NCBI GenBank assembly: GCA_016840515.1
Contig: JAEOSF010000014.1
Location: 1 to 64,000 of the forward strand
Reading direction: 5' to 3'
From: Candidatus Borrarchaeum yapensis
Lineage (GTDB): Archaea; Asgardarchaeota; Sifarchaeia; Borrarchaeales; Borrarchaeaceae
DNA length: 64,000 nucleotides
The stretch's first letter is position 1; each line of letters opens with the position of its first letter. Under the pieces are notes generated by a model that ran no database searches, was not told the origin of the DNA, and worked only from the letters and a program-made list of their open reading frames with translations. Below, piece by piece: positions 5,097 to 64,000 of this stretch. A program made the position numbers and the translations under genes.

Positions 5097-5627
5097 TCAT
5101 TCCACCTTAACAACTTGTTCGATATTTGTTTTCAATATTTCTATGACGTTTTCTCTATGCAGCGGATCAATCGCTACTACAGGATAAGTTGGACATCGCA
5201 ATACGTTTGCTACTCTTTCAGCTGTCATAACTCCAGATAAATCCTGTTTATTTGCCAGAGCGACTATTTTCATCTTGTCCCCGCCATTTTCGTCCCTTTT
5301 ATTTAGCCAATCAATGATCATTTTTGTTTTTAAAACTCCTGTAGGCGTAGAATCCGTTACAACTATACATAATTTAGTATTGAGAAGATAAGAATTATAC
5401 ATTGGCCAGAAATTTTTCTGTCCTCCGAAATCCCAAAGATTAAGCTCATGTTCCCCGAGCATGCTTTTAATCATTTTCTGTCCGAAATTAAGTCCGATAG
5501 TTGGTCTATATTCTAACTGAGGCGCCTTTCCTAATAAGAGATTGATCATGGATGTTTTACCGACTTTAGGATAACCGATAAAGGCCACTTTAATTTGCGA
5601 AGTAGTCTGAGTTATTTGAGAGAAAAT
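5097..5627 (-). CDS. Arf-like small GTPase
   Basis: Ras-superfamily GTPase, about 176 residues. Visible motifs: P-loop GYPKVGKTS (residues 18-26), switch I threonine in RPTIGLNFG (Thr43), G3 WDFGGQ (65-70, the Arf/Sar/Rag-type WDxGGQ), and G4 NKQD as in Arf. There is no C-terminal lipidation cysteine and no N-terminal amphipathic Arf helix. A GTG at 5588 would leave the first beta strand truncated. In-frame sequence (SQIKVAFIG) extends back to an ATT at 5627, five bases after a GGGGG Shine-Dalgarno; I take ATT as the start. Immediately followed by a longin-like gene. Eukaryotic-type GTPases are abundant in Asgard archaea. Confidence 0.88.
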   Translation of the reverse strand: MFSQITQTTSQIKVAFIGYPKVGKTSMINLLLGKAPQLEYRPTIGLNFGQKMIKSMLGEHELNLWDFGGQKNFWPMYNSYLLNTKLCIVVTDSTPTGVLKTKMIIDWLNKRDENGGDKMKIVALANKQDLSGVMTAERVANVLRCPTYPVVAIDPLHRENVIEILKTNIEQVVKVE

Positions 5628-5763
5628 TGATACCCCCTTTAGTAAAGTAAAAAGAGAATTACGATGTTTTTAAAGACGCGTATTATCTACATATTGTCGA
5701 AACATCGCCGACAAAAAACCTTTTTGTTAAGATAAATTCTAAAAAAGTGAATAAAAGGTGTAT

Positions 5764-6957
5764 TCACAGATTTTTTTCAAGTTTTTCTATGAAATCAGCA
5801 GGTATTTCAGGAAGTTGTTTTGGTAACCGTTCTAACAATTGTTCTTTGTTAAGCATGCCCTCTTGGACACCAGATACCTCCCATATACTTCCCATAATGG
5901 TCATACCTGCATAGATTGACTCCACTAAATCAAATCCTCTTTGATACAGTGAAAGAAATCCTGCAGCAATTCCATCGCAGCAACCAATTGAATTTCCTGA
6001 TTTATTCAATTTGATTGGTCCAATCCTAATAGAATCTGCATTCCTTTGAAGAATTTGCGCCGTTCCAGTAATTTTATCTTCGACAATAATCACACGTGGC
6101 TTGTTGGTACCAGTGACGTCAAATATCTGTTCAGGTGCTTTGATTTTATATGCATCCAGAATTTGTTTGATCTCAGAGGGATTGCCAAATACAATTTCTG
6201 TTAGAGGAACAACGGTCTTAAGATAATTTGGTGTTACGCCATATGATCCCACGTCGATTACTACTTCTTTACCGAGATAAGCGCCTTCCTTTGCACAACC
6301 TGTCATAAATGCTTCTTCTGCAGAAGTGATAAACACAATATCTGTTTTCTTATCTAGAATACCTATTGGAATTGGCCTTCCTTCTTCTACTGGTGATGCA
6401 CCATTAATGTCATCAATGAAGAACCAGTCTATCCCTTTTGCATCTTTGTTACATACAATTGTCATCGTTTCTTTGTCTTTAACAATTAGGGTGTCTGCAT
6501 TAAGAATTTCTGGCGAATAATTCGAATTAAGATGTTCCCGTACCTTATCCCACTTCCCCCATAGTTTCTGGGGAACTTCAACTTCTAAGAGCTTCATATC
6601 CACACCTGTCTTTTTCAGATGATCGTAATAGGGACCTCCAAAGAACCCAGGATAATTTTCGTTGTAGTCATCGCCAAAAGTTGTGAGAAGGCGCACATCA
6701 CCACCCAATAAGGCGATTTGATATGCGATATGACCGCACCGACCCCCGTAGTTATAAGTGATGGGCTCGATCGCTTTGTCACGTAAATATCCTAATACCT
6801 TCTCCACATTCCATTCTTCACCATAAAACTCCGGAATAAGAGAATAAGGGATGGATTTTTTAAGATATTTTTTAAATGAAGCAGGAAGCGTTGTTGTGGA
6901 CTCGATTTTTATTTGCTCGTCTTTTCCAATTGTTCCTACCACAGCAATGGTTTTCAT
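5764..6957 (-). CDS. PfkB-family carbohydrate/nucleoside kinase
   Basis: Ribokinase/PfkB superfamily protein of about 397 residues, longer than the usual 300. Seen: N-terminal strand MKTIAVVGTIGKD, glycine-rich NYGGRCGHIAYQIALLGGDV (the first PfkB signature region), and near the C-terminus SIGCCDGIAAGF, which corresponds to the GAGD anion-hole/catalytic Asp motif with both small residues replaced by cysteine while Asp is retained. Extra sequence lies between residues 30 and 70. It phosphorylates a sugar or nucleoside; the substrate cannot be read from sequence. The genomic neighbourhood contains methionine-salvage genes, so a methylthioribose- or nucleoside-related substrate is possible but unproven. 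Confidence 0.8.
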   Translation of the reverse strand: MKTIAVVGTIGKDEQIKIESTTTLPASFKKYLKKSIPYSLIPEFYGEEWNVEKVLGYLRDKAIEPITYNYGGRCGHIAYQIALLGGDVRLLTTFGDDYNENYPGFFGGPYYDHLKKTGVDMKLLEVEVPQKLWGKWDKVREHLNSNYSPEILNADTLIVKDKETMTIVCNKDAKGIDWFFIDDINGASPVEEGRPIPIGILDKKTDIVFITSAEEAFMTGCAKEGAYLGKEVVIDVGSYGVTPNYLKTVVPLTEIVFGNPSEIKQILDAYKIKAPEQIFDVTGTNKPRVIIVEDKITGTAQILQRNADSIRIGPIKLNKSGNSIGCCDGIAAGFLSLYQRGFDLVESIYAGMTIMGSIWEVSGVQEGMLNKEQLLERLPKQLPEIPADFIEKLEKNL

Positions 6958-23231: not shown

Positions 23232-23440
23232 TTAGATCCACCTTCCACAAACTTATAGTTATTACTTTTACGTATATCAAAGTACTTACCGCGATATACT
23301 TGCTTTCATCCCTCTTGTGGAGGAAGAGGGAATTGCGTTTCATGAGAATGTGGTCGTAGAAGGACTTAGTGGTTATGGTGAACACATTATCATAACTCGA
23401 TTGAGTCTCGTAAAATGAGCAGGCTCGCTTGTGGCTCCGA

Positions 23441-23592
23441 TACCGGTTGATCCTGCCGGACCCGACCGCTTTTGGGATGGGATTAAGCCATGCAAGTTGT
23501 GCGCTCCTAGCTGATGGAGAGCGGCGAAAAGCTCTGTAACGTGTAGTTAACCTCCCCTCAGGACGGGCATACCCTCGGGAAACTGAGGATAA
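23441..23592 (+). rRNA. 16S rRNA, 5' fragment only; gene interrupted
   Basis: Begins with the archaeal 16S 5' end (CCGGTTGATCCTGCCGGA), continues through GGGATTAAGCCATGCAAG and CGGGAAACTGAGGATAA (around helix 8), then diverges abruptly at about 23593 into AT-rich sequence with no 16S similarity. No downstream 16S signature (GTGCCAGCAGCCGC, the 900-region or the 3' end) appears anywhere to position 64000. Either an element of more than 40 kb is inserted here, or this is a fragment or an assembly join. Confidence 0.9.
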
Positions 23593-23824
23593 CTAAAAAT
23601 CATATTATAAAGAAAGAATCTAAAATAAATTATTTTATAGAGATGTTGTGTTTGGTATGTTATCTAAAGAGAATTAGAAGGTTTTTGAGTCTTTTAAGAC
23701 ACGAGAATCAAGTTAGGATAAAAAATGAATAAGATAGGAAAAAAGAATCATCATTAGTATAACCATAATTGACCATTAATTTCTTCTACGATCATATAAA
23801 AAAAGAAAGAGTGTTAGGAGTAGT

Positions 23825-25150
23825 TCATTTTTTGAAAAATTGAGATAGAGTTGGGCGGATGTTGGATATTTTTTTGTTGACATATTCTTTTAGAAAGGTG
23901 CAATAGTGATCCCTTACGCTGTATTGACCGACATTGACGGTTTTGGCGATCAGTTTCTGCGTTAAAATATGAATTTTATTGTATCTTTCTGCTAGTATAA
24001 GATCGGATGCATACAGTGCAGCAGAGGCGTAGGTTCTCGGATGTCTCCCAGAGTTCTTGAGTGATGTTGCATCAAGTGCCTGTTGAGCGGTCTTTTGTAG
24101 TAGAAATCTGTATGTTTCAATCTCCCAGTTTTGTTTAATAAGGCGTGATTTGATCTCGGGATTTGCTAGCAGATCACTTATTAGGTCGGATAAGAAGTCC
24201 TCGCTTTTTCTGCTCACATGAGATATGACATTCATTTGTTTGAGTTGTTGAAGTGTTTTGATGACTGAACTGTTTGAAATCTTATGACCTAAAATCTTAA
24301 TGTTGTCGATAATCTGTTGTAAATAAAAGGGTTCTTTATTCTCCTTAATGGCGGTATAGAGACAAGCGCATATTAAAACAGGGTGTGTGCTATATTCATC
24401 TTTAGAGAGTGTGTTTAAACTTTTTCGATATAAGTAAGCTGCTCTCATGTAAGTTTGTTCTGTTACTTGTAGGTTTGAGCAGGCACGCCTTAAGGATTTT
24501 AATGTTCTGTACTCTGATTCGCGTCCTTTGATTCTTGCTCGAAAGTTGAACAAACGCTTAAGTTTATTGAAGTGGTATTTAGTTTCATTGGGAAGAAGGT
24601 TGTTCTGTCCGTCACGTTTAATGACTGAGTAGTTGAAACCTATGAAACTCCCTAGACCGTCCACCATATCAACTCTCTCGCCTGTACTTACAAATTGCCT
24701 GCCCAAGTCTCCCTGTGCGGTGTTAATAGAAATAATAAATTCGGGTGTGACAAAAGCCTTGTCACCCTCCAGTCCACAAGCTTCACAAACATATACTCCT
24801 TGATATTGAGAAGTGGGGGAACCGCACTCGTCGCATGGTGGGTTTCCTTGATTGATTGTGAACCCAACAAGTTTGTGATTCTGATACTTCGGAATGATGA
24901 TGATTTTTTCAGTAAGGTGAAGAATGATGTTCATTATGCTTCTGAGGTTGTATTTACCGTTAAGAGCGCTGTGAATCTCGTCATATGTGTATAATTTTCC
25001 CTGCTGGTTGAGTTCGTGAATCTTTGCAAGTACCTCGTTTTTTGCTACTTCATCAAGTTGGTTAGTAGTGACAGCGAGTAGTTGGTTGCCATCAATAATA
25101 AATTTGGTTTGTTTGTTGTACTCGCGTAGTTTATTTCGATTTTTTTTCAA
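23825..25150 (-). CDS. TFB-like transcription initiation factor with N-terminal extension and PIP-box-like tail (TFB1)
   Basis: About 441 residues. Residues 106-125 hold a TFIIB-type zinc ribbon (CDEC...CEAC), followed by a B-finger-like linker (GLGSFIGF) and two cyclin-like repeats (about 190-290 and 320-420; ARIKGRESEYRTLKSLRRACSNL...SRHPRTYASAALYASDLI). The first about 105 residues are an added domain that looks winged-helix-like. The last ten residues RPTLSQFFKK fit a PCNA-interacting peptide (xxxLxxFF). TTG start with GGAGGG nine bases upstream. Its own promoter is A-rich and host-like. Probably directs polymerase to element promoters; clamp coupling is inferred. Confidence 0.85.
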   Translation of the reverse strand: MKKNRNKLREYNKQTKFIIDGNQLLAVTTNQLDEVAKNEVLAKIHELNQQGKLYTYDEIHSALNGKYNLRSIMNIILHLTEKIIIIPKYQNHKLVGFTINQGNPPCDECGSPTSQYQGVYVCEACGLEGDKAFVTPEFIISINTAQGDLGRQFVSTGERVDMVDGLGSFIGFNYSVIKRDGQNNLLPNETKYHFNKLKRLFNFRARIKGRESEYRTLKSLRRACSNLQVTEQTYMRAAYLYRKSLNTLSKDEYSTHPVLICACLYTAIKENKEPFYLQQIIDNIKILGHKISNSSVIKTLQQLKQMNVISHVSRKSEDFLSDLISDLLANPEIKSRLIKQNWEIETYRFLLQKTAQQALDATSLKNSGRHPRTYASAALYASDLILAERYNKIHILTQKLIAKTVNVGQYSVRDHYCTFLKEYVNKKISNIRPTLSQFFKK

Positions 25151-25195
25151 CTCGATCTACCCTCCGAATTAAACTATACTTAAATTAACATTAAT

Positions 25196-25215
25196 ATCAT
25201 ATATAAGTTTTTCTG
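25196..25215 (-). promoter_or_regulatory. TFB1 promoter with A-rich BRE
   Basis: On the minus strand AGAAAAACTTATATATG: an A-rich BRE next to a TATA box about 46 bases before the start codon. It differs from the GT-rich flank of most other element promoters. Confidence 0.6.
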
Positions 25216-25373
25216 AGAGATTTTTGGGTTATGTTATGTGATAAAATAGGATGATATGGGATTAAGTGAACGGGAAATGATTTTAGGAAAAAGGAGAATA
25301 CATGACGGAAATCGATTTTTTAAAATTGTCCTTAAAGTGACTTTAAAGAATGTTGAGATGTGAGTAAGAATAA

Positions 25374-26433
25374 TTAACGACAGTAGAAAAGAAGATTGGA
25401 CTGGTAGGTATCCTCGAAGGCGTTAGCCCATCTTATGTACTGCTTGGAGATGCAATTAAAGCTCGAATCGAGCAATAGCTCGTCGGCAATAAAAAATGGT
25501 CGGGACGTGTCATAACTCTCTATGCCGAAGGAGCGACCGTGTGTGGAAGTGTACTCCGAGTTTAATTGATGGGCGTAGTTGATTATTTCCTTTCGAGTTT
25601 CGCCCAGCAGGTGAAGGCGGGGGCGGTTGCCGTAGGGAATAAGGTGTATTTTTGGGTGGAAGATGTGAAACATTTCTTTGAGAAGTCTTTTGCTATCCCT
25701 GAGGTTGAACTCGTGCAAGGGGAAGGTCACCGCAAGGTCGATCGGACTGCATTCAAAGGAGTGGTCTTTGAGGAAACAACGTACACGCTGGGCGGATTGA
25801 CGAAACTCCTTACAGGTGGTGCCCTGAACCGTGAGGCGAAAGGTATAGCATAACCCGAGTTGTGCAAGGGTGGTGGTGTGTATCTTTTTAATGTAGTCAA
25901 GAAGTAACTCGTAACTTTGGAGGCTTTTTTGCGGATTCTGTACAAAATCGGGAAGGATGATCTGATAATGGAGAATTTTGGTTTTACGGACTATTTCCAA
26001 TTGATGTTTAAAGCGGATGATGGGATCAGAGGGGATTCTGGAAGATTTTCCGTTCTGTATTGCTTGGAACAGTTGGAAGGCACCGTTATCGATCCATAAT
26101 TCTGTGATACGCTGTGTTGAAAGGATTTTATCGGAGGCGTAGCGGTGGTAATCGAAGGGTGAGGAACATTCCCCGTAGATATTGACCATCAGTTCGTTGA
26201 ATCCGTTGATTAATTTCTGCCCTTTGTCGTTTACCATGTGCTGATACCAGTCAAGGTCGCGAGTGGTGATGACGGGCACCAGTCGGGGGTTTATATGACG
26301 TACCTCACCATCGAAGAAGTCGATGTTATAGACTGAACCATAGTCGAGTAGACTTGATGATTCTGCCCAGCTTTTCGGGGATGAGGTGTCCTCATCGAGT
26401 TCGAGTGATTCTTCATAAACACATTTTGTCATT
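25374..26433 (-). CDS. TGT/DpdA-like TIM-barrel protein (possible 7-deazaguanine transferase)
   Basis: About 353 residues, start ATG 26433 behind GAGGGG. Motifs in the order expected for tRNA-guanine transglycosylase-like barrels: WIDNGAFQ (residues 113-120, cf. DSGGFQ with the first catalytic Asp), IILPDF (158-163), PRLHLLGE (271-278) and FGIESYDTSRPF (302-313, the second Asp region). Phage DpdA enzymes of this fold place 7-deazaguanine bases in DNA to resist restriction. No preQ0 synthesis genes are in the window, so the base would come from the host archaeosine pathway. Family call moderate; DNA as substrate is inferred. Confidence 0.5.
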
Positions 26434-26477
26434 ATTGCCCCTCTGTGTATAATCTCAAAGTTCATATTCTAAATGAA

Positions 26478-26492
26478 TATATAAAGACCACG
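26478..26492 (-). promoter_or_regulatory. Element-type promoter of the TGT/DpdA-like gene
   Basis: Minus strand CGTGGTCTTTATATA: TATA box with a GTGGTC upstream flank, the clearest example of the element consensus. Confidence 0.65.
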
Positions 26493-26585: not shown

Positions 26586-27755
26586 TTAGAGTGAAGTTAT
26601 GTAGAAGTTGGACAGTTGGTTTTCCTTTGTGAAAAGGATCGCGTCTTGAAGCGTCTTAAATTCTTTTTGTTCTTTGCCTTTCGATGTGGAGTAGGTTACG
26701 CGGTGTGTGTCATGTTCTTCTGGTGTTGGTATCATCTTTTCTTCTTTTTGTCTATCACTTATTTTTTCGATGAGTTGATAATTGTTATCTGCATCTAAGA
26801 AAACAACTTCCTGTTGTTTTAATTCTTCTAAAGCGTCCAAAAAACTGTAGTATTCATCTTTGGTATCGAACTTTTGTTTGATGAGAGCTCGCCTTAGTTC
26901 GTATTGATCGCCTCGTATTTCTGATATTATCCATTCTTTTAATTTGTCAATCTCGGTTCTTATCTCATCAATTATAATGTATTTCTGTCTTTTTTCATCG
27001 AATTTGATGATCTTATTTTCTATTAGAAATTCAAAGGCTGGTTTGAAGTATATTTCGTGGGGTTCTTTTGCGAATAGTCCTCCTTTTATTGCTCTCTGGA
27101 GTTCTTCTGTGTTTTCGGATTTGATTTGAGTCAAAATCCAATTATTGTATTTTTCTGAAAGAAAAGCATGGTTATTTCTTTGTTCTTCTGTATGTTCGTC
27201 TTCTGTGTGTTGTGTTTTTGAATGTGAATTGTTTAAAGTGGATTCTGCTTCTATTTCATCTTCTTCTAAGTTAAGGGTATTAATTTCGGTATCTGTATCG
27301 GTTGCATTTTGCTTGACTACGAAAAAGTATCTATTCATTGAAGAATCAAAGGCTAGCAATCCTTCTCGATACATTTCTTCAAAGACTGTTCGACATAGTT
27401 CTTGCACTTCAGCGGGTGTGTTGGTATCGTTGCGGTTTATTATACTTAGTAATTGAACTTGGTCGGTGTCATCGATCTGAGAAATGATCCAATTTCTCAT
27501 TTTTGTCCTATGTGTTTCCTCTTTTGTTGGTTTTGTATCTGTTGCTGTTTTATGACTGATTGTTTTAGTTTTTGTGGTGTTTATTGTGCAGTAGTATCCG
27601 TTTGAAATTAGTGAGTTAACGATGCACTGTTTACACAAATCTGTTGTGATATCATCTTCTGAATGAATACAGTGATTGTGACATTCACGTAGTATTAGTT
27701 CAATTTCTACCTCTGGTTCGCGTTTTTTTGTTTTCGGTTTTTCTAGTATTTGCAT
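26586..27755 (-). CDS. Protein with cysteine cluster, three winged-helix-like repeats and a C-terminal RYxV module
   Basis: About 389 residues; ATG 27755 behind GAGAGG. N-terminus: CHNHC...CKQC zinc-type cluster (residues about 25-45). Then three related about 60-residue units starting WIISQI, WILTQI and WIISEI and ending in a hydrophobic wing (RYFFV, KYIII, NYQLI), separated by acidic linkers. The last about 40 residues (HRVTYSTSKG..FKTLQDAILFTKENQLSNFYI) match the end of the protein at 41761-42654 and the start of that at 54661-55605. Probably DNA-binding; no known family recognised. Confidence 0.65.
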   Translation of the reverse strand: MQILEKPKTKKREPEVEIELILRECHNHCIHSEDDITTDLCKQCIVNSLISNGYYCTINTTKTKTISHKTATDTKPTKEETHRTKMRNWIISQIDDTDQVQLLSIINRNDTNTPAEVQELCRTVFEEMYREGLLAFDSSMNRYFFVVKQNATDTDTEINTLNLEEDEIEAESTLNNSHSKTQHTEDEHTEEQRNNHAFLSEKYNNWILTQIKSENTEELQRAIKGGLFAKEPHEIYFKPAFEFLIENKIIKFDEKRQKYIIIDEIRTEIDKLKEWIISEIRGDQYELRRALIKQKFDTKDEYYSFLDALEELKQQEVVFLDADNNYQLIEKISDRQKEEKMIPTPEEHDTHRVTYSTSKGKEQKEFKTLQDAILFTKENQLSNFYITSL

Positions 27756-27789
27756 GATTATTCCTCTCATAGAATTTCATCAAAGAATG

Positions 27790-27803
27790 TATATAAAGAC
27801 CAC
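27790..27803 (-). promoter_or_regulatory. Element-type promoter
   Basis: Minus strand GTGGTCTTTATATA, 35 bases before the start of the winged-helix-repeat gene. Confidence 0.65.
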
Positions 27804-31567: not shown

Positions 31568-32338
31568 CTATTCGCCTCCCTCGATCCGTGGAGCTAAGAA
31601 GTAGTCGAGTTGATATGTTGGAGCTAGGATCCCAAGTTTAAGGGGCATATCGGTGGAGTATTCGATTTTAAGGTAGTCAAATGCGCCGACGGTTTTAGTC
31701 ATATCACTGAGGTATTTGAGGGCGTAGATAGCCTGAGATTCCGCTTTTACTTGGTATTCTCTGAGATTATCGCTTTGTTGTGACTCTGAGGCATCAATGA
31801 TAACTTCGACCTCTCCCGAGTCGCCATCAGAGGTGACTTTGATTCTCTCGGGTGTTGCTTGTAACGTGATGTAGTCGCCCACTACTTCGGCATCCTTAAG
31901 GATGTTCTTGAAGGTGGATGCTGACATGGAAATCAGGGTGTCGAATTTGATGTCGGGGATAGGGATATCCTCTCCGCTGTCCTCACCTAACAGTGAAAGA
32001 CTGAAATTGCGGGTAGCTTTTTCGGATTTGAGTTTGAGGTTCAGTTTGTTCTTAGTTTCATCAACGGTGAGTTCGAGGGTGTCGTCGTCGGTTGATCGTC
32101 GCATGATCTGCGTCATTTCTACCAGACTAACACCAAACGCTACTGAACCGTTGCAGTGATATTCCGTGAAGGAATTTGGTGAGAGTGCAAGATCAACCAT
32201 TGCTATATGAGCTTCATCGATAGCACGGGCATGGATGCCCTCGTCATCGGAGATAAAATGAATCTCCTTAACAAGAGCGGCTAATGACTCGGTGATGTTT
32301 TTCCAGATGTGTGCGTCAAGAGTGACTTTTACTACCAT
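31568..32338 (-). CDS. PCNA-like sliding clamp 1
   Basis: About 256 residues, the normal PCNA length. Archaeal/eukaryotic clamp features: N-terminal KVTLDAHIWKNITESLAALVKEIHF, EGIHARAIDEAHIAMVDLALSP (cf. D-SHVALV in the family), a central loop and a C-terminal YLKIEYSTDMPLKLG..YQLDYFLAPRIE (ending in the APRIE-type tail that receives partner peptides). Encircles DNA and recruits PIP-box proteins; FEN1 and possibly TFB1 of this element carry such peptides. Its promoter flank is GTTGTTCTCCTTAAATAC. A host PCNA must also exist elsewhere. Confidence 0.92.
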   Translation of the reverse strand: MVVKVTLDAHIWKNITESLAALVKEIHFISDDEGIHARAIDEAHIAMVDLALSPNSFTEYHCNGSVAFGVSLVEMTQIMRRSTDDDTLELTVDETKNKLNLKLKSEKATRNFSLSLLGEDSGEDIPIPDIKFDTLISMSASTFKNILKDAEVVGDYITLQATPERIKVTSDGDSGEVEVIIDASESQQSDNLREYQVKAESQAIYALKYLSDMTKTVGAFDYLKIEYSTDMPLKLGILAPTYQLDYFLAPRIEGGE

Positions 32339-33579: not shown

Positions 33580-34094
33580 GGCAACTCATCTCGCGCGTGC
33601 TGGTTCTTTTCTGCTTTTGCAAATAATTGGTTTAAGGTGGGTTGTATGCCTGCCCAGACCCTCCAGTTGTGGATGGTGGTACGATTGAAAAGGGTAATCT
33701 CACTATCATCGATTTTCTTGCGCTTCTTGGATGTTTTTTTGCTGGATGTTTCTTTTGGAATATGAGTTATCTCACCAATTCCCTCCTTACTAAGAGTCGC
33801 TTGTGAAACGAACTCGGTGTGGGTGGTGATATGATTGATCGTTTTCCCGGTGAATAAATTTGTCTGTGCGGTGGTGAGCGTCCTTTTTTTCTTGTTATTC
33901 CGATGGTTGTTGTTCTTGTGTTGTTTACGCTTTTGAAGAATGATGACCTCGCCCTCGATCAATGATGGGATCTTATATCTGATCGTGGGTTCCTCACTTT
34001 CTTTTGGAACGAGTAAACTGTCATCCCTTATTTCCTCAAGTTCTTGTGTGGTGAGTCGTTTGCCTTTCGAGTTGCCGATTTTCACTTCTGTCAA
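33576..34094 (-). CDS. Basic hypothetical protein downstream of PCNA2
   Basis: About 172 residues. TTG 34094 is taken as the start: it overlaps the PCNA2 stop (TTGA) and lies after GGAGG, so translation is coupled. Central region is Lys/Asn-rich (KRKQHKNNNHRNNKKKR) and may contact DNA. No family recognised. Confidence 0.6.
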   Translation of the reverse strand: MTEVKIGNSKGKRLTTQELEEIRDDSLLVPKESEEPTIRYKIPSLIEGEVIILQKRKQHKNNNHRNNKKKRTLTTAQTNLFTGKTINHITTHTEFVSQATLSKEGIGEITHIPKETSSKKTSKKRKKIDDSEITLFNRTTIHNWRVWAGIQPTLNQLFAKAEKNQHARDELP

Positions 34095-34843
34095 TTGGTT
34101 GCCTCCTGAGAACGATGGGCGAGATAGAAATGGTAATCGGTGAAGTCTATGCAAAACGAAATATTAAGATGGGTGTTGGCTAATGCTAAACGAAACTCCT
34201 GCTTATTGCTAATCACGTTAGCGCATTTCTTAAGGTAATTGAGGGTGTAGATGCCATGAAAGTGTGGTGTGTTATCCTGATGACCATTATCTTGATTCAA
34301 AGATACGTTATGAGAGGCGGTGCTCTCACCTTCAAATGACTCAAATGAAAGCTGATCATAGTCCGATTTGATGGCAACACATTCGCTTGCTACCTCGATG
34401 TCCCTTACTGCTTCTTTCAAGTTCTCGCCCAGAAGGTCGAAGGTGGCATTATACGGTTCGTCTGGAACGGGGAGGTCGGCGATCTCGGTGCTGATGAGAT
34501 GGGTTTTGAAACTACGAGTCATACCATTGTGCCGATAGTTCAGAATGAATTTGTTCTTGGATGTGTCGATCCTGATCTCAATATCGGCATTGGTGGTTAT
34601 CCGTCTGGCAATTTCAAGACAATTAGGAAGGTATATGCCAAAGTTTATCGCTTCATCGCAATGATAGGATGAAAAACATTCTCTTGGGAACACGATGTCG
34701 AACATGGCCGCTTGGGTGTCGTCACAGGTCTTGACATGAAGACCGTTTTGATTGGCATAAAAGCCAACTTCTTTGGTTAGTTTTTGTAGACATTCGAGAG
34801 TCGTTTTCCATGGTCGAATTGACTCTAAAGTCATAACAATCAT
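34091..34843 (-). CDS. PCNA-like sliding clamp 2 (diverged)
   Basis: About 250 residues with the PCNA layout: TLESIRPWKTTLECLQKLTKEVGFYANQNGLHVKTCDDTQAAMFDIVFP, a second domain from about residue 125, and C-terminal NISFCIDFTDYHFYLAHRSQ. It lacks the APRIE-type C-terminal end of PCNA1 and is more diverged. Archaeal clamps can be heterotrimers, so it may assemble with PCNA1 or the host clamp, or form a specialised ring. Own element-type promoter at 34886-34900. Confidence 0.85.
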   Translation of the reverse strand: MIVMTLESIRPWKTTLECLQKLTKEVGFYANQNGLHVKTCDDTQAAMFDIVFPRECFSSYHCDEAINFGIYLPNCLEIARRITTNADIEIRIDTSKNKFILNYRHNGMTRSFKTHLISTEIADLPVPDEPYNATFDLLGENLKEAVRDIEVASECVAIKSDYDQLSFESFEGESTASHNVSLNQDNGHQDNTPHFHGIYTLNYLKKCANVISNKQEFRLALANTHLNISFCIDFTDYHFYLAHRSQEATN

Positions 34844-34885: not shown

Positions 34886-34900
34886 TATATAAAGACAACG
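34886..34900 (-). promoter_or_regulatory. Element-type promoter of PCNA2
   Basis: Minus strand CGTTGTCTTTATATA, GT-rich flank plus TATA, 43 bases before the start codon. Confidence 0.65.
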
Positions 34901-38758: not shown

Positions 38759-39793
38759 GTGGTGAAATGTGTGTGCGTGGAAAAATTCTGCAATGAATGC
38801 CGAGGAAATATAGTCCTGAATAAAGGGGTTTACGTTTGTGAAAATTGCGGATTGGAAGTCGCCAAACATTACAAACATTATGTAGATAGTTCTTATCTCA
38901 TTACGATCGAGGGTAGCAGCGGTTGTGACGCGAGGCAGTATGTTGGTCTAGGAAGCAGAAGTGATGTAGTCGGAGGATTAGGAAGTTGTATTGGAAGAGG
39001 TAAGGGGGGGTATGAGACAGACTACAATAAGGTTCCAATTTCAAAAGAAACGGCAACTCGAATGAGACATTTGGATAGAATCTACAATTTCAGGGCTCGG
39101 ATACGTGAAAAAGAGTCTGAATATCGTGTATTGAAGTCGTTAAATCGGACGGTTGCGTTGTTACAAGTTTCACAAGAAACAAAGAAGAGGGCCGCCTATA
39201 TTTACCGTAAAGGAGTTAAGATTCTAGATAAGGATGAAATAACCACACACCCTGTCTGTATGACAGGAGCATTGTTTATCTCGGTGCGAGAGTACGATGA
39301 ACCAATTACATTGCAAGAGATCGCGAGAACGTTTGAGGAGTTAGGGCATAGAGTTCCTGTTAAAAGCGTGTTGAAGGTAGTTGAAAATTTAAAGAGGCTA
39401 CCAGGAGTCAAATTAAAAACCAGAAGAAGTGAGGCATATATTCCTCGACTTGTGAGCAAGATTGTTCGACACCCTGAGGTTGTGGAAAGACTTAAAAAAA
39501 GGAGGCTATCCGCTTCTGGATATCAAGAACAGTTGAAGCATCATGCACTAGCATTATTAGAAAGAATAAGTAGGGAAGAACGTGGGGGGAGGCATCCATT
39601 TGTGTTTGCGGTTTCATCAGTATATGCCGCAGATTTGTTACTCGAAGAGATTCTTGGCAGAAAACATCTGCTCACGCAAAAAATGCTGGCACGCATTACA
39701 GAAGTGGCGCAATATAGCATCCGTGACCATAATACCACCCTATTTAAGAAATGTATCTCGGAACTGAGTAGTACGGAGGCTCCTCTTGCGTGA
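38759..39793 (+). CDS. TFB-like transcription initiation factor (TFB2)
   Basis: About 344 residues. N-terminal zinc ribbon with Cys11, Cys14, Cys27 and Cys30 (CNEC...CENC), GLGSCIGRGKGG linker, then two cyclin-like repeats (ARIREKESEYRVLKSLNRTVALLQV..; HPFVFAVSSVYAADLLLEEI..). Shares with TFB1 the SEYR-LKSL-R core, STHPV/TTHPV and the C-terminal QYSIRDH segment, so both are paralogues distinct from typical host TFB. GTG start at 38759. It lacks TFB1's N-terminal extension and PIP-like tail. One of the few plus-strand genes; its 3' end overlaps the next minus-strand gene. Confidence 0.85.
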   Translation: MVKCVCVEKFCNECRGNIVLNKGVYVCENCGLEVAKHYKHYVDSSYLITIEGSSGCDARQYVGLGSRSDVVGGLGSCIGRGKGGYETDYNKVPISKETATRMRHLDRIYNFRARIREKESEYRVLKSLNRTVALLQVSQETKKRAAYIYRKGVKILDKDEITTHPVCMTGALFISVREYDEPITLQEIARTFEELGHRVPVKSVLKVVENLKRLPGVKLKTRRSEAYIPRLVSKIVRHPEVVERLKKRRLSASGYQEQLKHHALALLERISREERGGRHPFVFAVSSVYAADLLLEEILGRKHLLTQKMLARITEVAQYSIRDHNTTLFKKCISELSSTEAPLA

Positions 39794-44569: not shown

Positions 44570-47053
44570 TCAAGTCGTCCTGGTAATTTCAGGAGGTGCT
44601 GATTGTTGCATCGCCCAGAATGTGTTATTGAGTTTTAGAACATCTTGAAATATTTCGTCTGGATATCGATCCTTAAGACTGTCGTTAAGGATAGGGGCTA
44701 TTATAATGGCTACATCTTGTTTGTCATCGACCAAAAAACAGGGAATGTTTGGCAAGTGACAGACGTAGAGTTTAATGTTGGGGTTGTCATTCCCTCCAAG
44801 GCAGTCATATGCTTTTATTATGAAGTCAAGATGGTAATTAGAGAAGATTGGAATCATTATGTTGTCATCATTCGATTCACCATCGTCAAAGCGGAAATGT
44901 GTGCGATAGTTATCGATGGCTTGTTGGTCTATAAGCGATTTTTTGTGTACTGAGTCGCGTAATAGTTGCAATCGATCCGTGTAATGATGTTCTGGAAAAT
45001 AAAAGGATGATTGTTGTAGCTCGCTCCAAAACCCGATACCACAGTGATGTTTTGGATCAAACATAAGTATCTTTAACGGATCGGTAGGAGGAAGTAGTAA
45101 ATGGCGAATGTCCTCGGAGTCGGTGTTAGAGAAATCCCATCCCATAAAGAAAGTTAGCCAATTATCTCTCCACTCTCTGCGTATCTTAGTCCAGAATGCG
45201 GATGAATCTATTACTTGTCCCTTTGTCTCTTGTTTTTCCTCGGTGTATAGTTCTTGATTGTCACCATTGGTTGCTGTTTCGTCAAATTCGGTTGGTTTTG
45301 ATTGCTCTTTTCCTTCATGATGTTGAGTTGAATCATCCACATCATCTTCAGCATTAATAATAAGCGATGATATTTCACCTGAATCCTGGTGACCGGAAAA
45401 TTTCTCTTTTGTGCGTGCAATCTTCACTACCTGTTTTAATTCTTCACTCTCAAGAAACCGATTAGCGATGTTTTGTAGATGTTTGTTATCGCTGGCGGGA
45501 AGTAAGATTGAGGTCGTAAGTTGTTTGATAGTCGCCTTAAATTGAGTAAGTGAGGAATCGATATCCTCTCCATCTGATAGAATTTCAACTAGCGATTCGA
45601 ATTCTTCTTGAATCTCTTGCTCGTGTTCTCCAATTAAGTCTATGAGTTTTCTTCTTTTATTGACAAGTGTTTCGACTTCATAACTATTGAAAAGTTGATC
45701 GGCGATATGAAATATCTCTTCGGCTTGTTTTTCAGATATATTAAACTGAGCAAGGTTGGCTTTAAGATCATACATTCTGGTACTAAATCCATCAAAAGCC
45801 TGTTTCAAATGTTCTTCATTACGAGCATGGTTTATCGCGTGGCGTAGATCGATAAAGGATTCCTGAAGTTGATTACGTGCAAAATTATGCTTAATGGTCT
45901 GAATGAGTGGATGTAACACATGAATGGAATTGATGGTCCGTTTTGGTGTTTCTTTTGTTTTCGTTTCTTCCTTAGATATTGACGGTTTATCGAGTAGATT
46001 GTCTTGTTTAATACCGTTAGTTGTTTTGGTTGTTTTTGTACCTTCAAATGTGATATAAACGACTCCTAGTACCTCTCGTAATTGTGTGAAGATGGGTAGG
46101 TCGTTTCGATTGAGATAATCTTCCGTTTCTTTTAATAATCGAGACGTTTCAGCGGGATCGTTGGATAAAGTTTTTACTGTTTCCCAGAACTGAAGTAATG
46201 CCTCACCCCATCTTTCACGGGAAATTGTGTAACGCAAATCCGTTTCAAAACCACCGATTAGTATCCTGAGTTGCTGATCGTTTTTAAAAACAGTTTGTGT
46301 TTTTTGGCAATCATCTGACTGTTTACTTATTGGTTGTTCCATCGGAGTTGGTTCTAACTTTTCTTCTGCTGACTGATCGTTGTTTGTTGTGGTCGATTCC
46401 TCGTTTTTCTGTTGTTGTGATATGAACTCGATCAATTTGCGTTTGATGACACGATTGATTTCATCCTCGCGTTCTTTGAAGAATTCAAAAGCTCTAAGTT
46501 CGATATCTCCTCCGAAATCAGGATATGTCTCTTGCAACTCTTCTACGCTCTTATTTCTCGTCTCTAACGCCGTTTGAAAATCTTTCTCGGATGTCGCCTC
46601 ACCTAAAACCTTAATGAACTCATCGAATGATTGTTCGAGTTTTTTATCGATCTCGATCAGGATGGTTTCGAGATTGTCTGGATCATATTGTTCGATCAAT
46701 GCTAACCGATTTTTAATCTCTTCACTTTCAAGCAATCGCCGCGCTTTTTTACGGATTCTTGCGTTTTCTTCTGGATCGGGAAAGAGACTTTGGCAAATAC
46801 CATCGATGGATTCCCTAAATGAACCAAGTGCGTTCTTTGCACACAGTTGATCCCAACATTCAATGAGTGCCGAGTGTAATGAGTTGTAAGCTGCCTGCAA
46901 TTGGTTGTCGTGTAGTTCGCGAATATCTTTTGTTGTTTCATTCAAAATCTCTTTTTCTTCATCAGTCTTTGTTTTAGTGGTTGGCGGAAAAAACTTTGTA
47001 ATTCGACCGCCCTTTGTAGTCCTGCTCTTTTTTTTAGATCGTCTCTTCGGCAT
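44570..47053 (-). CDS. Large helical repeat protein with N-terminal PIP-like motif
   Basis: About 827 residues; ATG 47053 after GAGGGG. A basic start (MPKRRSKKKSR) is followed by GGRITKFFPP (residues 15-24), close to a PCNA-interacting peptide (xxxIxxFF without the first Gln). Residues about 50-220 and 370-560 are related helical units, each ending near LLESEEIKNRL or FLESEELKQVV; acidic linkers lie between. The last about 200 residues are globular (WTKIRREWRDNWLTFFMGWDFSN...). The largest gene in the element; no family recognised. May be a clamp-associated scaffold. Confidence 0.65.
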   Translation of the reverse strand: MPKRRSKKKSRTTKGGRITKFFPPTTKTKTDEEKEILNETTKDIRELHDNQLQAAYNSLHSALIECWDQLCAKNALGSFRESIDGICQSLFPDPEENARIRKKARRLLESEEIKNRLALIEQYDPDNLETILIEIDKKLEQSFDEFIKVLGEATSEKDFQTALETRNKSVEELQETYPDFGGDIELRAFEFFKEREDEINRVIKRKLIEFISQQQKNEESTTTNNDQSAEEKLEPTPMEQPISKQSDDCQKTQTVFKNDQQLRILIGGFETDLRYTISRERWGEALLQFWETVKTLSNDPAETSRLLKETEDYLNRNDLPIFTQLREVLGVVYITFEGTKTTKTTNGIKQDNLLDKPSISKEETKTKETPKRTINSIHVLHPLIQTIKHNFARNQLQESFIDLRHAINHARNEEHLKQAFDGFSTRMYDLKANLAQFNISEKQAEEIFHIADQLFNSYEVETLVNKRRKLIDLIGEHEQEIQEEFESLVEILSDGEDIDSSLTQFKATIKQLTTSILLPASDNKHLQNIANRFLESEELKQVVKIARTKEKFSGHQDSGEISSLIINAEDDVDDSTQHHEGKEQSKPTEFDETATNGDNQELYTEEKQETKGQVIDSSAFWTKIRREWRDNWLTFFMGWDFSNTDSEDIRHLLLPPTDPLKILMFDPKHHCGIGFWSELQQSSFYFPEHHYTDRLQLLRDSVHKKSLIDQQAIDNYRTHFRFDDGESNDDNIMIPIFSNYHLDFIIKAYDCLGGNDNPNIKLYVCHLPNIPCFLVDDKQDVAIIIAPILNDSLKDRYPDEIFQDVLKLNNTFWAMQQSAPPEITRTT

Positions 47054-47127: not shown

Positions 47128-48141
47128 CTAGGCCATCACGCAATTGCATCGTATACGCCGAAAGTTCATGCTAAGTGCCTTCCATATACCAAGAGTTTCT
47201 TTACACAACCCGACCTTACGATAATTGTAATTATCTTTCAAATACTGAATTAAAGTCAAATACATAGTAAAGCGAATATCAAATGGAATTTTTTTACCCC
47301 AGTTAGAGGATTCGGACAAATATTTAACCCATGATTTATCCGTCGCTGCATTGATTGTGCTTTGCAGACCCCGCAAGGAGCCGAGAGTGATTGAATCGGG
47401 GACGAATTTTGAGAAAATATCATCTATAAGTGAAAGATATTTCTCATTCCAGTTCTCTACTGATACCATCGGGTCGATCCTGAGTCTTGTCACATAGCCT
47501 TTTTCATGTACTCTTTTTGCTGCTGCGATTCTTGATTTTGGTGACGGTGCCTTTTTCTCCCATCTTTTAGCAACATCATGGGCGTTTACAGAAAAACTAA
47601 CGATGAACCGCTGTGTATTATCGAGAGTTAACAGGTTCTTGACGTTGTTCGACTTTGTGAGTAACAAGATTTTATGGTGGAGTTGAGGATCATGTTCTTC
47701 GAGAATATCGTAGACAAACTTGGTAAATGGAGGATCGAGATGTTCTGCCACAAAGGAATCCGATAGTTCTCCAGAACTCAACAAAGTTGAGCCTTGGTAC
47801 TTGGTAGCTAATGCGACAAGATGTTTTTCTAGTTTAGCAAAATCCTTTATATGTGGATTGCCTAGCCATTCTGGGAAGAACCTGAGAGTACCCCTTAAAT
47901 AACACCATGCACAATCAAATCGACACCCAGCGGCCCATTTTAGTTGCAAGAAATGAGGACATACGACATCTGTGTCTTTTCGAGGAAATGGTGTCTTGGA
48001 GAAACGAGTGATTATCGAACCATCGCTAACCTTAATCAGCGTTTCTCTTACCTTACCATCTAGATTGCGTAACTTGCCGGATTTGACTCGTAGACCTGAT
48101 TTTCGAGCAACCGTTCCACCATGCAACGTCCTTTGTGGTAT
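47128..48141 (-). CDS. Radical SAM protein, photoproduct-lyase-like
   Basis: About 337 residues. GCRFDCAWCYL gives the CxxxCxxC iron-sulphur site of radical SAM enzymes in the CYL context of spore-photoproduct-lyase-like proteins. Downstream strands (LLSSGELSDSF, HKILLLTKSNN, RFIVSFSVNAHDVAKRWEKKAPS, VTRLRIDPMV) complete the barrel. Photoproduct lyase repairs UV thymine dimers; homologues of unknown substrate are common. The frame reads back past TTG 48126 to an ATA at 48141, nine bases after GGAGG, giving MPQRTLHGGTVARKSG; ATA is preferred. Likely a repair gene of the element. Confidence 0.75.
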   Translation of the reverse strand: MPQRTLHGGTVARKSGLRVKSGKLRNLDGKVRETLIKVSDGSIITRFSKTPFPRKDTDVVCPHFLQLKWAAGCRFDCAWCYLRGTLRFFPEWLGNPHIKDFAKLEKHLVALATKYQGSTLLSSGELSDSFVAEHLDPPFTKFVYDILEEHDPQLHHKILLLTKSNNVKNLLTLDNTQRFIVSFSVNAHDVAKRWEKKAPSPKSRIAAAKRVHEKGYVTRLRIDPMVSVENWNEKYLSLIDDIFSKFVPDSITLGSLRGLQSTINAATDKSWVKYLSESSNWGKKIPFDIRFTMYLTLIQYLKDNYNYRKVGLCKETLGIWKALSMNFRRIRCNCVMA

Positions 48142-48219: not shown

Positions 48220-48636
48220 TTAAAGCGATAGCGGTATAACAGGTTTTAGTTCGATACGCGTATTGGTGTCGGCGTTGAGTTCTTTCAAACTCTTAAATTT
48301 GTTCCCACAGTTAACACAGTAGATCGGATTATCGTCTAATGGATGTTTATGATCTAGGCATCCTGTATTTATATTGAGTTGAGAGAAATCTCCTTTGATC
48401 AACAAGATGGTGTTATCATTGCATTTTGGACAACGATATTCAACGTCCACTTCCTTGGTATCGAGGTCGTCGACGGATTGATACGATTGATTACATTTTA
48501 GGCAGTGAAATGAGGGAGTATCTGAAACGATTTTTATACAGCCGAAGTTTAGATCCAATTCTTGAATAAGTGAGGTTCGCTCGATGATCTCGCGTCCCCC
48601 GCATGACTTACATAAATATATGATCCTCTTCAACAC
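48220..48636 (-). CDS. Multi-zinc-ribbon protein
   Basis: About 138 residues with four CxxC pairs and further Cys/His: LCKSCGG, FHCLKCNQSY, YRCPKCNDN, YCVNCGNKF. Two or three zinc ribbons in tandem. TTG or ATG start behind GGGAGG. Likely nucleic-acid binding; function unknown. Confidence 0.6.
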   Translation of the reverse strand: MLKRIIYLCKSCGGREIIERTSLIQELDLNFGCIKIVSDTPSFHCLKCNQSYQSVDDLDTKEVDVEYRCPKCNDNTILLIKGDFSQLNINTGCLDHKHPLDDNPIYCVNCGNKFKSLKELNADTNTRIELKPVIPLSL

Positions 48637-48686: not shown

Positions 48687-48700
48687 TATATAAAGACAAC
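48687..48700 (-). promoter_or_regulatory. Element-type promoter
   Basis: Minus strand GTTGTCTTTATATA, 51 bases before the multi-zinc-ribbon gene. Confidence 0.6.
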
Positions 48701-48714
48701 CTGGTTGCTGTAAT

Positions 48715-49191
48715 TTACTTAATGATCTTGAAACGAAGTTCCTTGAGCAAATCCTCATCAACAATAACGACATGATGGTTGCTGCGGACAAGAGAGTAAC
48801 CAGAAGTTAAAAAATCTGCCTGCACCAATTTAGCTAGTTTTACATACTCAGCAAGGCATTCCTCATAATCACTCCAGTCTTGCTCTTTGTCCAACCAGCG
48901 ATGTTCGCACAGACCGATAGCAAAACATTCAGAGATTTGACAGATTTTGTCTTCTCGAATGATCAACACGGTTTCTAGGATACACCCATCCTTGTGTTGG
49001 CGGGCAAATTCTTCCGCTGCTTCTGGTGTGAAACAAAAGTACGCCCCCCTGCCAAGCATCCATGTTTCAGAGATGTCGGGAATCACGAAACCCGATTTTA
49101 TGATGTTTAGTGCCTGCACCTTACCTGTCCCATGATAGAGTTTGGTGGTGTTCAGATTCGACTCGGTGGGTTTTATTGCGGTATCAGTCAT
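48715..49191 (-). CDS. PARP-like ADP-ribosyltransferase domain protein
   Basis: About 158 residues. LYHGTGKVQALNIIKSGF (His20-Gly-Thr) and LGRGAYFCFTPEAAEEFA (Gly47, Tyr51) match the first two NAD-binding signatures of PARP-type ADP-ribosyltransferases. The third catalytic position is unclear: the C-terminal strand reads NHHVVIVDED without the usual Glu, as in some mono-ADP-ribosyltransferases. Phages such as T4 use ADP-ribosylation to alter host polymerase, so a takeover or toxin function is conceivable. Own element-type promoter at 49222. Confidence 0.65.
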   Translation of the reverse strand: MTDTAIKPTESNLNTTKLYHGTGKVQALNIIKSGFVIPDISETWMLGRGAYFCFTPEAAEEFARQHKDGCILETVLIIREDKICQISECFAIGLCEHRWLDKEQDWSDYEECLAEYVKLAKLVQADFLTSGYSLVRSNHHVVIVDEDLLKELRFKIIK

Positions 49192-49221: not shown

Positions 49222-49235
49222 TATATAAGGACAAC
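49222..49235 (-). promoter_or_regulatory. Element-type promoter
   Basis: Minus strand GTTGTCCTTATATA, 31 bases before the ADP-ribosyltransferase-like gene. Confidence 0.6.
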
Positions 49236-56923: not shown

Positions 56924-57949
56924 TTAGAAAAAGCGATCCATTGTTGATTGTCGGGTATCTGTAGCTTTTTCAAGTCGCTCGATGGCGTTTTCGATTCGAT
57001 TTTTAGCAAAATCATGCTCTTCGCATAGAAATTCGGTTAGTTTTTCGCGTTTAGGTTGACGCCATTTCAGATCATAGGCATCGGTTACTTCAGGATTTTT
57101 GAATATGTTATATATTTGATCGACGGGAACGTCGTTTAACACGTTTTTTTCTTGTATAATGGTTCCCAGCTCACCGTATTGCTTGATCCATTTAAGTGCC
57201 GTTTTCGGTCCAACTTTTGCCACACCTTCGTTAAAGTCGGTGCCAATAAGAATACCAATACCGATTAGTTGTCCAAGAGTGATCTCTAGATGCTCAAGTA
57301 GTTGATCTAGGTAGATCAGTTCAGGCTTAATCTCTACGTATGTCTGTTTGCGTGGTAGTTTGCGACGTCCTGTGGATGTGAGATTCCTAACAAATTTTTC
57401 GGCATTAAATAACAGACTATCCAGATCTCGAGAAGCAGTTGCCCAGACATCACCCTGACTATTCATATATGCGGCTTGTGCTTCACCTTCTGAAGGTGAT
57501 TGCACAAATGGGATCCCCATGTGTGATAGTAGCGACTTGGCATCGGAGATCATATCAGTATCGAATCGCGAGGTTGCCTGAGCGTGTCTACGAGCAGATT
57601 CATAATCCCCTCTTGCGAGTGAAGCAAGCCATTTTTCTGTTGCGGTGTCCTTAATCTGTTTTCTTTCCTTGATGGTTTCACTTTTTAATTCTGGAGGTTT
57701 GCCATCAAAAATAAATACAGGACGTATGTTCAGTTCGACAAGGTTAACAGTACGGTAGAACAATCCGTTTAGGTGTGACGTCACTCTTCCCTTTTTATCC
57801 TTAAGTGGGTGTCCATCAGTTTGGCGGATTATAGATAAAAATTGGTACAAAGTATTCATTGCGTCAACGGCGATGTCTTTACCGCTGAGATCTCTTAGTT
57901 CAATTTGATGAACTGAGTCCTTTAAGAGAGGACTAATTTTAACCCCCAT
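56924..57949 (-). CDS. Flap endonuclease FEN1
   Basis: About 341 residues, normal FEN1 length. N domain MGVKISPLLKD, IAVDAMNTLYQFL (Asp of the active site), PVFIFDGKPPELK; I domain IPFVQSPSEGEAQAAYMN (catalytic Glu pair), ATASRDLDSLLF (SxDxD), and the helix-two-turn-helix GIGILIGTDFNEGVAKVGPKTAL. It ends in a perfect PCNA-interacting peptide QSTMDRFF (334-341). Removes Okazaki flaps with PCNA; the element supplies both. Archaeal type. Confidence 0.95.
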   Translation of the reverse strand: MGVKISPLLKDSVHQIELRDLSGKDIAVDAMNTLYQFLSIIRQTDGHPLKDKKGRVTSHLNGLFYRTVNLVELNIRPVFIFDGKPPELKSETIKERKQIKDTATEKWLASLARGDYESARRHAQATSRFDTDMISDAKSLLSHMGIPFVQSPSEGEAQAAYMNSQGDVWATASRDLDSLLFNAEKFVRNLTSTGRRKLPRKQTYVEIKPELIYLDQLLEHLEITLGQLIGIGILIGTDFNEGVAKVGPKTALKWIKQYGELGTIIQEKNVLNDVPVDQIYNIFKNPEVTDAYDLKWRQPKREKLTEFLCEEHDFAKNRIENAIERLEKATDTRQSTMDRFF

Positions 57950-62893: not shown

Positions 62894-63328
62894 TTAAAAA
62901 AACGCTGAAATAACTGTACAATCCGCGAACTTCCTTCTCTTGGTTTTTGTGCGGGGTTCATCCACGAAACCAAAAAGAACGGTCTGTCCTTCTGAGTTAT
63001 GGGATTTATTGAAATACAATCGGGTTTCTTGTGGTCCTGCCTTGATGTTATCGGGAAAGACCTGCGGGACTACCCGTCGCATCAAATCTATCACTATATT
63101 AACGTCAATGCCTTGCGCCTCATATTCTTTGACTAACCGATACATGAAACCGTCTTGATGCAGTTTATTTTGCAAGGCATGTAGTCTATCCATGATAATT
63201 TTAAGTTGAAAAGCGGTGATGAAAGTGGTTTCGTTAAACGGCGTGACTTTTCTTAAATTGGTACTCTCAGGCTTGTAGTAATTAATAGTGGTTGCATCAA
63301 ACAAATGATTTTGAACGCTCCTTGACAT
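62894..63328 (-). CDS. Hypothetical protein, 144 residues
   Basis: Helical middle (FQLKIIMDRLHALQNKLHQDGFMYRLVKEYEAQGIDVNIVIDLMRRVV) and C-terminal strands. No family recognised. Confidence 0.5.
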   Translation of the reverse strand: MSRSVQNHLFDATTINYYKPESTNLRKVTPFNETTFITAFQLKIIMDRLHALQNKLHQDGFMYRLVKEYEAQGIDVNIVIDLMRRVVPQVFPDNIKAGPQETRLYFNKSHNSEGQTVLFGFVDEPRTKTKRRKFADCTVISAFF

Positions 63329-63502: not shown

Positions 63503-64000
63503 CTAATGAAAGATATTGTGGATCTTTTCTGCCTTCTTCTTTCCGATGCCATGGACCGCCTGTAAATCCTTAAGAGTGGCGTTGGCTATACATTGAATTG
63601 TTTTAAAATGTTTGAGAAGTGTTTCTGCTAACTTTTCGCCTATGAGAGGTATCGAGGCAAGAGCATAATGTTTCAAATTCTTCTCTGGTAAATGAATACC
63701 TTTTGGCTTTCTTCGCCATCGTCCGTGTGGGGACTTGTTGTTTTTACCCTGTTTTTCTCGACTGATAGTGATCTCCAAAAATGACTTGAGAGCATCTTGG
63801 TAATTTTCAATGGGGACGATAGGTATATTATACACAAAAAGTACCTCTTGAATAGCCCCCGAAACCTGATTCCAAAGCGCTGAGATGTCGTTTTTGCGTA
63901 TGTCATGTGGTATATTTTCATAAAACTCACTGGGAACTCCTTGGACAAGGAGCATACAGCGTCTTATAGGATGATTGAGTACATAGCCATTTTTCAAGAT
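63503..64000 (-). CDS. Hef/XPF-type structure-specific nuclease, C-terminal part
   Basis: The frame is open to the window edge, so this is a partial gene. Visible: end of the ERCC4-type nuclease domain (CMLLVQGVPSEFY, helices to about 110) and a tandem helix-hairpin-helix domain (YALASIPLIGEKLAETLLKHF; DLQAVHGIGKKKAEKI). The catalytic GDxxxExKxxxD motif must lie beyond the window. Cuts branched or forked DNA, usually with PCNA. Completes the element's replication-repair set with PCNA and FEN1. Confidence 0.85.
   Translation of the reverse strand: MLKNGYVLNHPIRRCMLLVQGVPSEFYENIPHDIRKNDISALWNQVSGAIQEVLFVYNIPIVPIENYQDALKSFLEITISREKQGKNNKSPHGRWRRKPKGIHLPEKNLKHYALASIPLIGEKLAETLLKHFKTIQCIANATLKDLQAVHGIGKKKAEKIHNIFH

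Follow-up and report, generated by a model that had tools for sequence, protein, structure and literature searches.

The TFB1 gene and its surroundings

The window, i.e. the whole 64,000-nucleotide stretch of DNA analysed here, contains DNA of a mobile element whose host is an Asgard (Promethearchaeota) archaeon. Close to one border of the element lies the gene for TFB1, for which we recognize the following features:

23825–25150, minus strand: TFB1 gene, 441 aa, with a TTG start (25150) and GGAGGG ~9 nt upstream
25154–25232, minus strand: 79-bp promoter/leader block upstream of TFB1, with an A-rich BRE (AGAAAAACTTATATAT) and a Shine-Dalgarno sequence
24914–25051, minus strand: N-terminal extension of three helices, residues 34–79, winged-helix-like (AlphaFold, alignments)
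24776–24835, minus strand: zinc ribbon (C106, C109, C122, C125), invariant in 44 homologues
23858–24589, minus strand: cyclin-fold core, residues 188–431, pLDDT mostly >90, matched to TFIIB/TFB by Foldseek
23825–23857, minus strand: PIP-like C-terminal tail RPTLSQFFKK, residues 432–441, and the stop codon (evidence: codons, terminal-motif count, FEN1-matrix score)

The GGAGGG sequence in front of the TTG codon supports this start. TFB1 matches the Pfam TFIIB family at 2.7e-6, better than the curated cut-off, its best PDB folds in Foldseek are TFIIB/TFB chains, and it has the hallmarks of this family, namely a zinc ribbon, two cyclin repeats and the TFIIB fold. Judged by sequence and structural model, it is a TFIIB-family factor, a predicted archaeal promoter-recognition factor of the mobile element. 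Its N-terminal extension is missing from the closest homologues in our alignments. In total, this genome (3.63 Mb in 124 contigs, with 10% contamination) encodes five close TFBs: TFB1, TFB2, a TFB in an element-like region on contig C79, and two chromosomal types.

The surroundings of these genes hold several further observations. At 23440–23600 of the window, the element starts after only ~150–160 nt of an archaeal 16S gene, of which no other copy was found in this assembly; the related genome G002 continues into an intact, intron-bearing 16S gene. This break, on contig C13, may represent either an insertion into the 16S gene or an assembly misjoin. The 16S stretch spanning it has a 46-bp copy on contig C9 (C9:2580–2625; L146:1500–1546), located among repeated units of ~130 nt (ACGACATTTA...GAGGCGTCAGACC...CATGCAGAAGAACGTA...); this copy could be an attachment site, an intron target or a guide-like sequence. 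A complete RNase P RNA gene borders a second element region (L040:2970–3360), which begins right at the 5' end of this gene; genus-level synteny stops at exactly that point. As for gene content, 47128–48126 encodes a photoproduct-lyase-like radical SAM protein, and plasmid P-10H_0 (LC711081, uncultured archaeon) has one between its TFBs; 48715–49191, a gene under a promoter of the element class described below, yields a weak match (1.7e-4) to the catalytic domain of PARP; and the region from 63503 to 64000 and beyond (L038:3504–4373, 5325–6287) encodes an ERCC4-type nuclease with a helix-hairpin-helix and a RadA/Rad51 protein of the same element.

A PIP-like tail and the clamps it could bind

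Besides TFB1, the window encodes a second TFB, two sliding clamps and several proteins with canonical or weak PIP-like motifs:

31568–32338, minus strand: PCNA1, PIP-pocket residues kept (AIDEAHI, MP, LAPRIE)
33621–33644, minus strand: weak PIP-like motif QPTLNQLF (score 7.0) near the C-terminus of a 192-aa protein encoded beside PCNA2
34091–34843, minus strand: PCNA2, clamp fold (pLDDT 89), pocket changed (TCDDTQA, H for P, LAHRSQ)
38759–39793, plus strand: TFB2, of the same TFB family, without PIP tail, with an A-rich host-type promoter
46988–47011, minus strand: weak N-terminal PIP-like motif GGRITKFF (score 5.2) in an 832-aa protein
56924–57949, minus strand: element FEN1 nuclease, 61–63% identical to FEN1 of the host genus
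56927–56950, minus strand: canonical PIP box QSTMDRFF at the FEN1 C-terminus
62897–62917, minus strand: weaker PIP-like tail TVISAFF (score 7.2) of a 144-aa protein (62894–63328)

The initial annotation had read the end of TFB1 as a terminal clamp-binding peptide of the pattern xxxLxxFF, and the codons at 23825–23857 do encode it (C-terminal peptide SNIRPTLSQFFKK). The tail lies outside the folded core, with a pLDDT of ~50 and a short helix at 435–440 in the AlphaFold model, and its place at the extreme C-terminus is flexible and exposed, as is typical of PIP boxes. Leu occupies position 4 (L435), where Leu, Ile or Met is expected, and the aromatic positions 7 and 8 are taken by F438 and F439. 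Position 1 is Arg in place of Gln; in some Asgard FEN1 PIP boxes this position is likewise Arg, or else Lys or Pro, with one family ending in RTSLDMWFKK, and Gln is therefore not strict in this phylum. A second tailed protein of this genome, the C79 TFB (PKQPQTNLFQFLS; C-terminal peptide KQPQTNLFQFLS), has Gln at position 1 and F followed by L at positions 7 and 8.

Within four residues of the C-terminus, [LIM]xxFF occurs in three of the 56 element ORFs (TFB1, FEN1 and the 144-aa protein), where 0.12 are expected, and in 2 of 254 ORFs from host controls. On a score matrix derived exclusively from the FEN1 PIP boxes of ~30 Asgard genomes, the element FEN1 reaches 17.1, TFB1 13.2 and the C79 TFB 12.9, while just 0.056% of shuffled tails score as high as that of TFB1. 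Among 448 control ORFs, comparable scores were obtained for FEN1s and a TFB1 fragment only, with 10.0 as the best value for a non-FEN1 control (~418 proteins). The TFB1 tail also resembles Asgard FEN1 tails in its basic flanks and its position at the very C-terminus, and the host FEN1 end KKQATLFDWL is similar to the tail QTNLFQFL of the C79 TFB. The terminal-motif count and the matrix score led us to reject a chance hydrophobic end, and the tail has the look of an authentic sliding-clamp docking motif. Two other candidates were discarded: the tails SRFPMLF and SKFPMFF of another Asgard family, which look alike, score at most 0.1; and PIP tails are not a trait of most element proteins, with C-terminal scores >7 confined to TFB1, FEN1, the C79 TFB and the 144-aa protein. 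In the papers searched, PIP boxes were not reported for any TFB or TFIIB, an absence that is weak evidence.

Both of the clamps previously annotated on the element belong to the PCNA family, and we aligned them with further clamps, host PCNA included (27 in total). At the positions that we take to form the PIP pocket, assigned through this alignment and general knowledge from established PCNA-PIP structures, PCNA1 and host PCNA keep AIDEAHI, a Pro in a late strand and LAPRIE; the change to LAHRSQ is seen in PCNA2 alone among the 27. Since the pocket is kept in PCNA1 and host PCNA and lost in PCNA2, the tail would be expected on one of the former two. This refines the earlier proposal, in that only one of the element's own clamps appears suited to bind a PIP box. 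PCNA2 may instead be a structural partner that forms a heteromer with PCNA1.

Conservation of the tail among TFB1 homologues had been named as a check, and its outcome is mixed. We inspected how 68 homologues, drawn from dozens of Asgard genomes, end at the C-terminus and found the tail in two, TFB1 and the C79 TFB, which rules it out as a general TFB feature. Two of the three element TFBs carry it; it is missing from ~60 chromosomal homologues, from TFB2 and from the same-family TFB of plasmid P-10H_0, and is therefore an element-specific addition. The tailless plasmid TFB also led us to reject a general gain of the tail in mobile TFBs. Searches of viral contigs with TFB1, TFB1 alignments and PCNA2 found no relative, nor did searches of phage records; a search of genome contigs gave two matches, an ordinary Loki TFB and a partial ORF, both without PIP tail.

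A tree places all three element TFBs with the host genus (100/99), on long branches and with their mutual order open. The cores of TFB1 and the C79 TFB are ~38% identical, yet the 79-bp upstream block is 97% identical between the two genes, with no other copy in the genome, and for this reason the tail looks like an element trait that was kept while the rest of the TFB diverged. The DNA over LxQF[FL] is shared at 12 of 15 positions. The chromosomal part of contig C13 stops inside the 16S gene, and that of C79 where the RNase P RNA has its 5' end; a single contig of a related genome holds both break points ~19 kb apart, and the two element regions may therefore be one insertion. As both tailed TFBs come from one metagenome-assembled genome and perhaps from one insertion, their likeness does not amount to conservation across independent genomes.

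A promoter class and a TFB family linked to Orc1/Cdc6

Upstream of element genes, the A-rich BRE of host genes is replaced by GT(G/T)GTC, immediately followed by TTATATA. The strict motif was seen nine times in element DNA against ~0.03 expected and a relaxed version 30 times against 4.4, with most matches located 19–80 nt ahead of ORFs and on their coding strand; in host stretches of this genome, the count is near chance. Examples in the window are:

26480–26491, minus strand: GTGGTCTTTATA, 26 nt before ORF 25374–26465
27792–27803, minus strand: GTGGTCTTTATA, 33 nt before ORF 26586–27770
34888–34899, minus strand: GTTGTCTTTATA, 56 nt before PCNA2
48689–48700, minus strand: GTTGTCTTTATA, 64 nt before ORF 48220–48636
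49224–49235, minus strand: GTTGTCCTTATA, 44 nt before ORF 48715–49191

The genes for TFB1, TFB2 and the C79 TFB have A-rich host-type BREs instead (AGAAAAACTTATATAT, AAAAAATTTATATAA), as if they were read by the host TFB first. Genome-wide, six of the 11 exact GTKGTCYTTATAWA sites fall within element DNA, which makes up 1.8% of the genome, compared to two for reversed-pattern controls. The remaining sites recur in the related genome G002 and include both Orc1/Cdc6 promoters, and GTKGTC-TTATATA promoters common to two Asgard species belong to two Orc1/Cdc6 genes, a 93-aa protein and a small thioredoxin-like reading frame. Because GTKGTC was found before Orc1/Cdc6 in this genus only, the promoter class may be specific to this lineage. 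When the host promoter sites were scanned with Rfam and for tRNAs, no RNA gene came up, and a Pol III-like reading of the class is therefore not supported.

The Orc1/Cdc6 genes appear in a second context, the neighborhood of TFB1's chromosomal relatives. We analysed 21 Asgard loci, each comprising 11–20 kb around a family TFB, and found an Orc1/Cdc6 gene within 20 kb of the TFB in 14 of them, or in 11 of 18 when we set aside two G002 loci, picked with a nearby Orc1/Cdc6 promoter known, and the Loki locus from which the idea of a link first arose. Control host DNA, 293 kb in length, contains no Orc1/Cdc6 gene. This divergent family looks like an origin-linked alternative TFB, and its tailless host members may also read GTKGTC promoters.

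Proposed replication-coupled transcription, its alternatives and known parallels

From the observed sequences, folds, promoter class, conservation pattern and linkage, we propose that an origin-linked TFB was captured by the element and equipped with a clamp tether for replication-coupled transcription, a mechanism to which, taken as a whole, we give an even chance. TFB1 would descend from the family whose chromosomal members sit near Orc1/Cdc6, and the element version would have gained the winged-helix-like domain at its N-terminus and the PIP box at its C-terminus. Host TFB would read the A-rich-BRE promoters of the TFB genes, and the TFB1 thus made would, together with host TBP and RNA polymerase, bind the GTKGTC-TTATATA promoters of the element; recognition of GTKGTC by TFB1's family is likely. 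On replicating element DNA, the flexible tail would then bind a PCNA ring, that of PCNA1 or of the host, and such binding, too, is likely. The tether would hold TFB1 near its promoters and raise their output when the element replicates, an activation by the clamp that is plausible; no gp33-like coactivator was identified. The element, this suggests, may tie gene expression to DNA replication. The earlier interpretation of clamp coupling is partly supported at the level of sequence, with indirect support from the dedicated promoter class and from the linkage of the TFB family to replication-initiator genes, and the surrounding evidence makes the observation more interesting than first stated. 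A broader scenario, which we put forward tentatively and with somewhat less than even confidence, is that Asgard archaea possess a second TFB family, linked to origins, which has GTKGTC as its own BRE and controls Orc1/Cdc6 genes, and that mobile elements captured it, placed many genes under its promoter and joined the factor to a sliding clamp, bringing about replication-coupled transcription in Archaea with parts unrelated to those of T4.

A working PIP box could also serve another purpose than transcription activation. A promoter-bound TFB might draw the clamp, or the replisome, to promoters or origins of the element, or ride along with forks to limit conflicts, in keeping with the linkage of the TFB family to Orc1/Cdc6 genes and with the element's clamps, FEN1, ERCC4-type nuclease and RadA, which lead one to expect clamp traffic on its DNA. 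However, the same promoter class stands before many element genes, which points to gene expression rather than to one origin, and T4, the known parallel, uses such tails for transcription activation (PMC9690074); we consider this explanation rather unlikely, while taking it seriously.

A good deal less probable is that the tail does not bind clamps at all. It would then be either a product of chance or a hydrophobic peptide that docks onto a different partner (RNA polymerase, TFE or an element protein). Arg at position 1 of TFB1 would fit this idea, as would the fact that chromosomal homologues and TFB2 dispense with the tail, and the DNA run (TTTTTCAAAAAA) that encodes part of it could hide a sequencing error. 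Yet matrix scores near those of FEN1 PIP boxes, at ~6e-4 per shuffled tail, occur twice in element TFBs, and the basic flanks and terminal position match Asgard FEN1 tails. Finally, host PCNA has the same pocket as PCNA1 and should be bound by the tail as well, but that the tailed TFB takes over host PCNA or marks host forks, sequestering the clamp rather than coupling its own genes, is very improbable for an element with its own clamps and promoter class, and a basal factor would be a roundabout sequestering agent.

If true, a replication-coupled factor of the TFIIB family that has a PIP box of its own would be an independent invention of the T4 logic, built from eukaryote-like parts and located in those archaea that are closest to eukaryotes. 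In addition, both the promoter class and the linkage of TFB to Orc1/Cdc6 could serve to test for an alternative TFB regulon on Asgard chromosomes that is linked to replication.

Among known proteins, TFB1 shares the zinc ribbon, the GLGSxIG linker and the cyclin-fold core with archaeal TFB and TFIIB, but it belongs to a divergent, Orc1/Cdc6-linked family, has an extra N-terminal domain, and ends in a PIP-like tail that is missing in the 66 other relatives checked. With PIP-box proteins such as archaeal FEN1, the RFC large subunit and Pab0431, whose C-terminal PIP box is a published case from archaea (PMC3820547), it has in common the terminal h-x-x-F-F and basic flanks; unlike them, it is a transcription initiation factor and not a replication or repair enzyme, and Arg replaces Gln. 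Among known replicons, plasmid P-10H_0 is close: within ~6 kb it encodes PCNA, Orc/Cdc6, two TFBs, one of them of TFB1's family, and a photoproduct-lyase-like radical SAM protein, whereas its family TFB has no PIP tail.

The classic example of clamp-coupled transcription comes from the T4-like phages. In T4, gp55 and gp33 bind the clamp gp45 via C-terminal motifs (PMC9690074, PMC7892883), and the logic would hence be the same, with unrelated parts. In both cases, a promoter-specificity factor carries a C-terminal clamp-binding motif, here as judged from its sequence, the clamp is encoded by the same genome, and there is a dedicated promoter class. Conversely, the element relies on a TFIIB fold, PCNA and a PIP box, where T4 has a sigma-like factor, gp45 and a gp45 motif. 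That the parts are unrelated, as originally suggested, holds true: they belong to the TFIIB and PCNA families and have no homology to gp55, gp33 or gp45. The element would thus work like T4 late transcription by analogy, and not as a member of that system.
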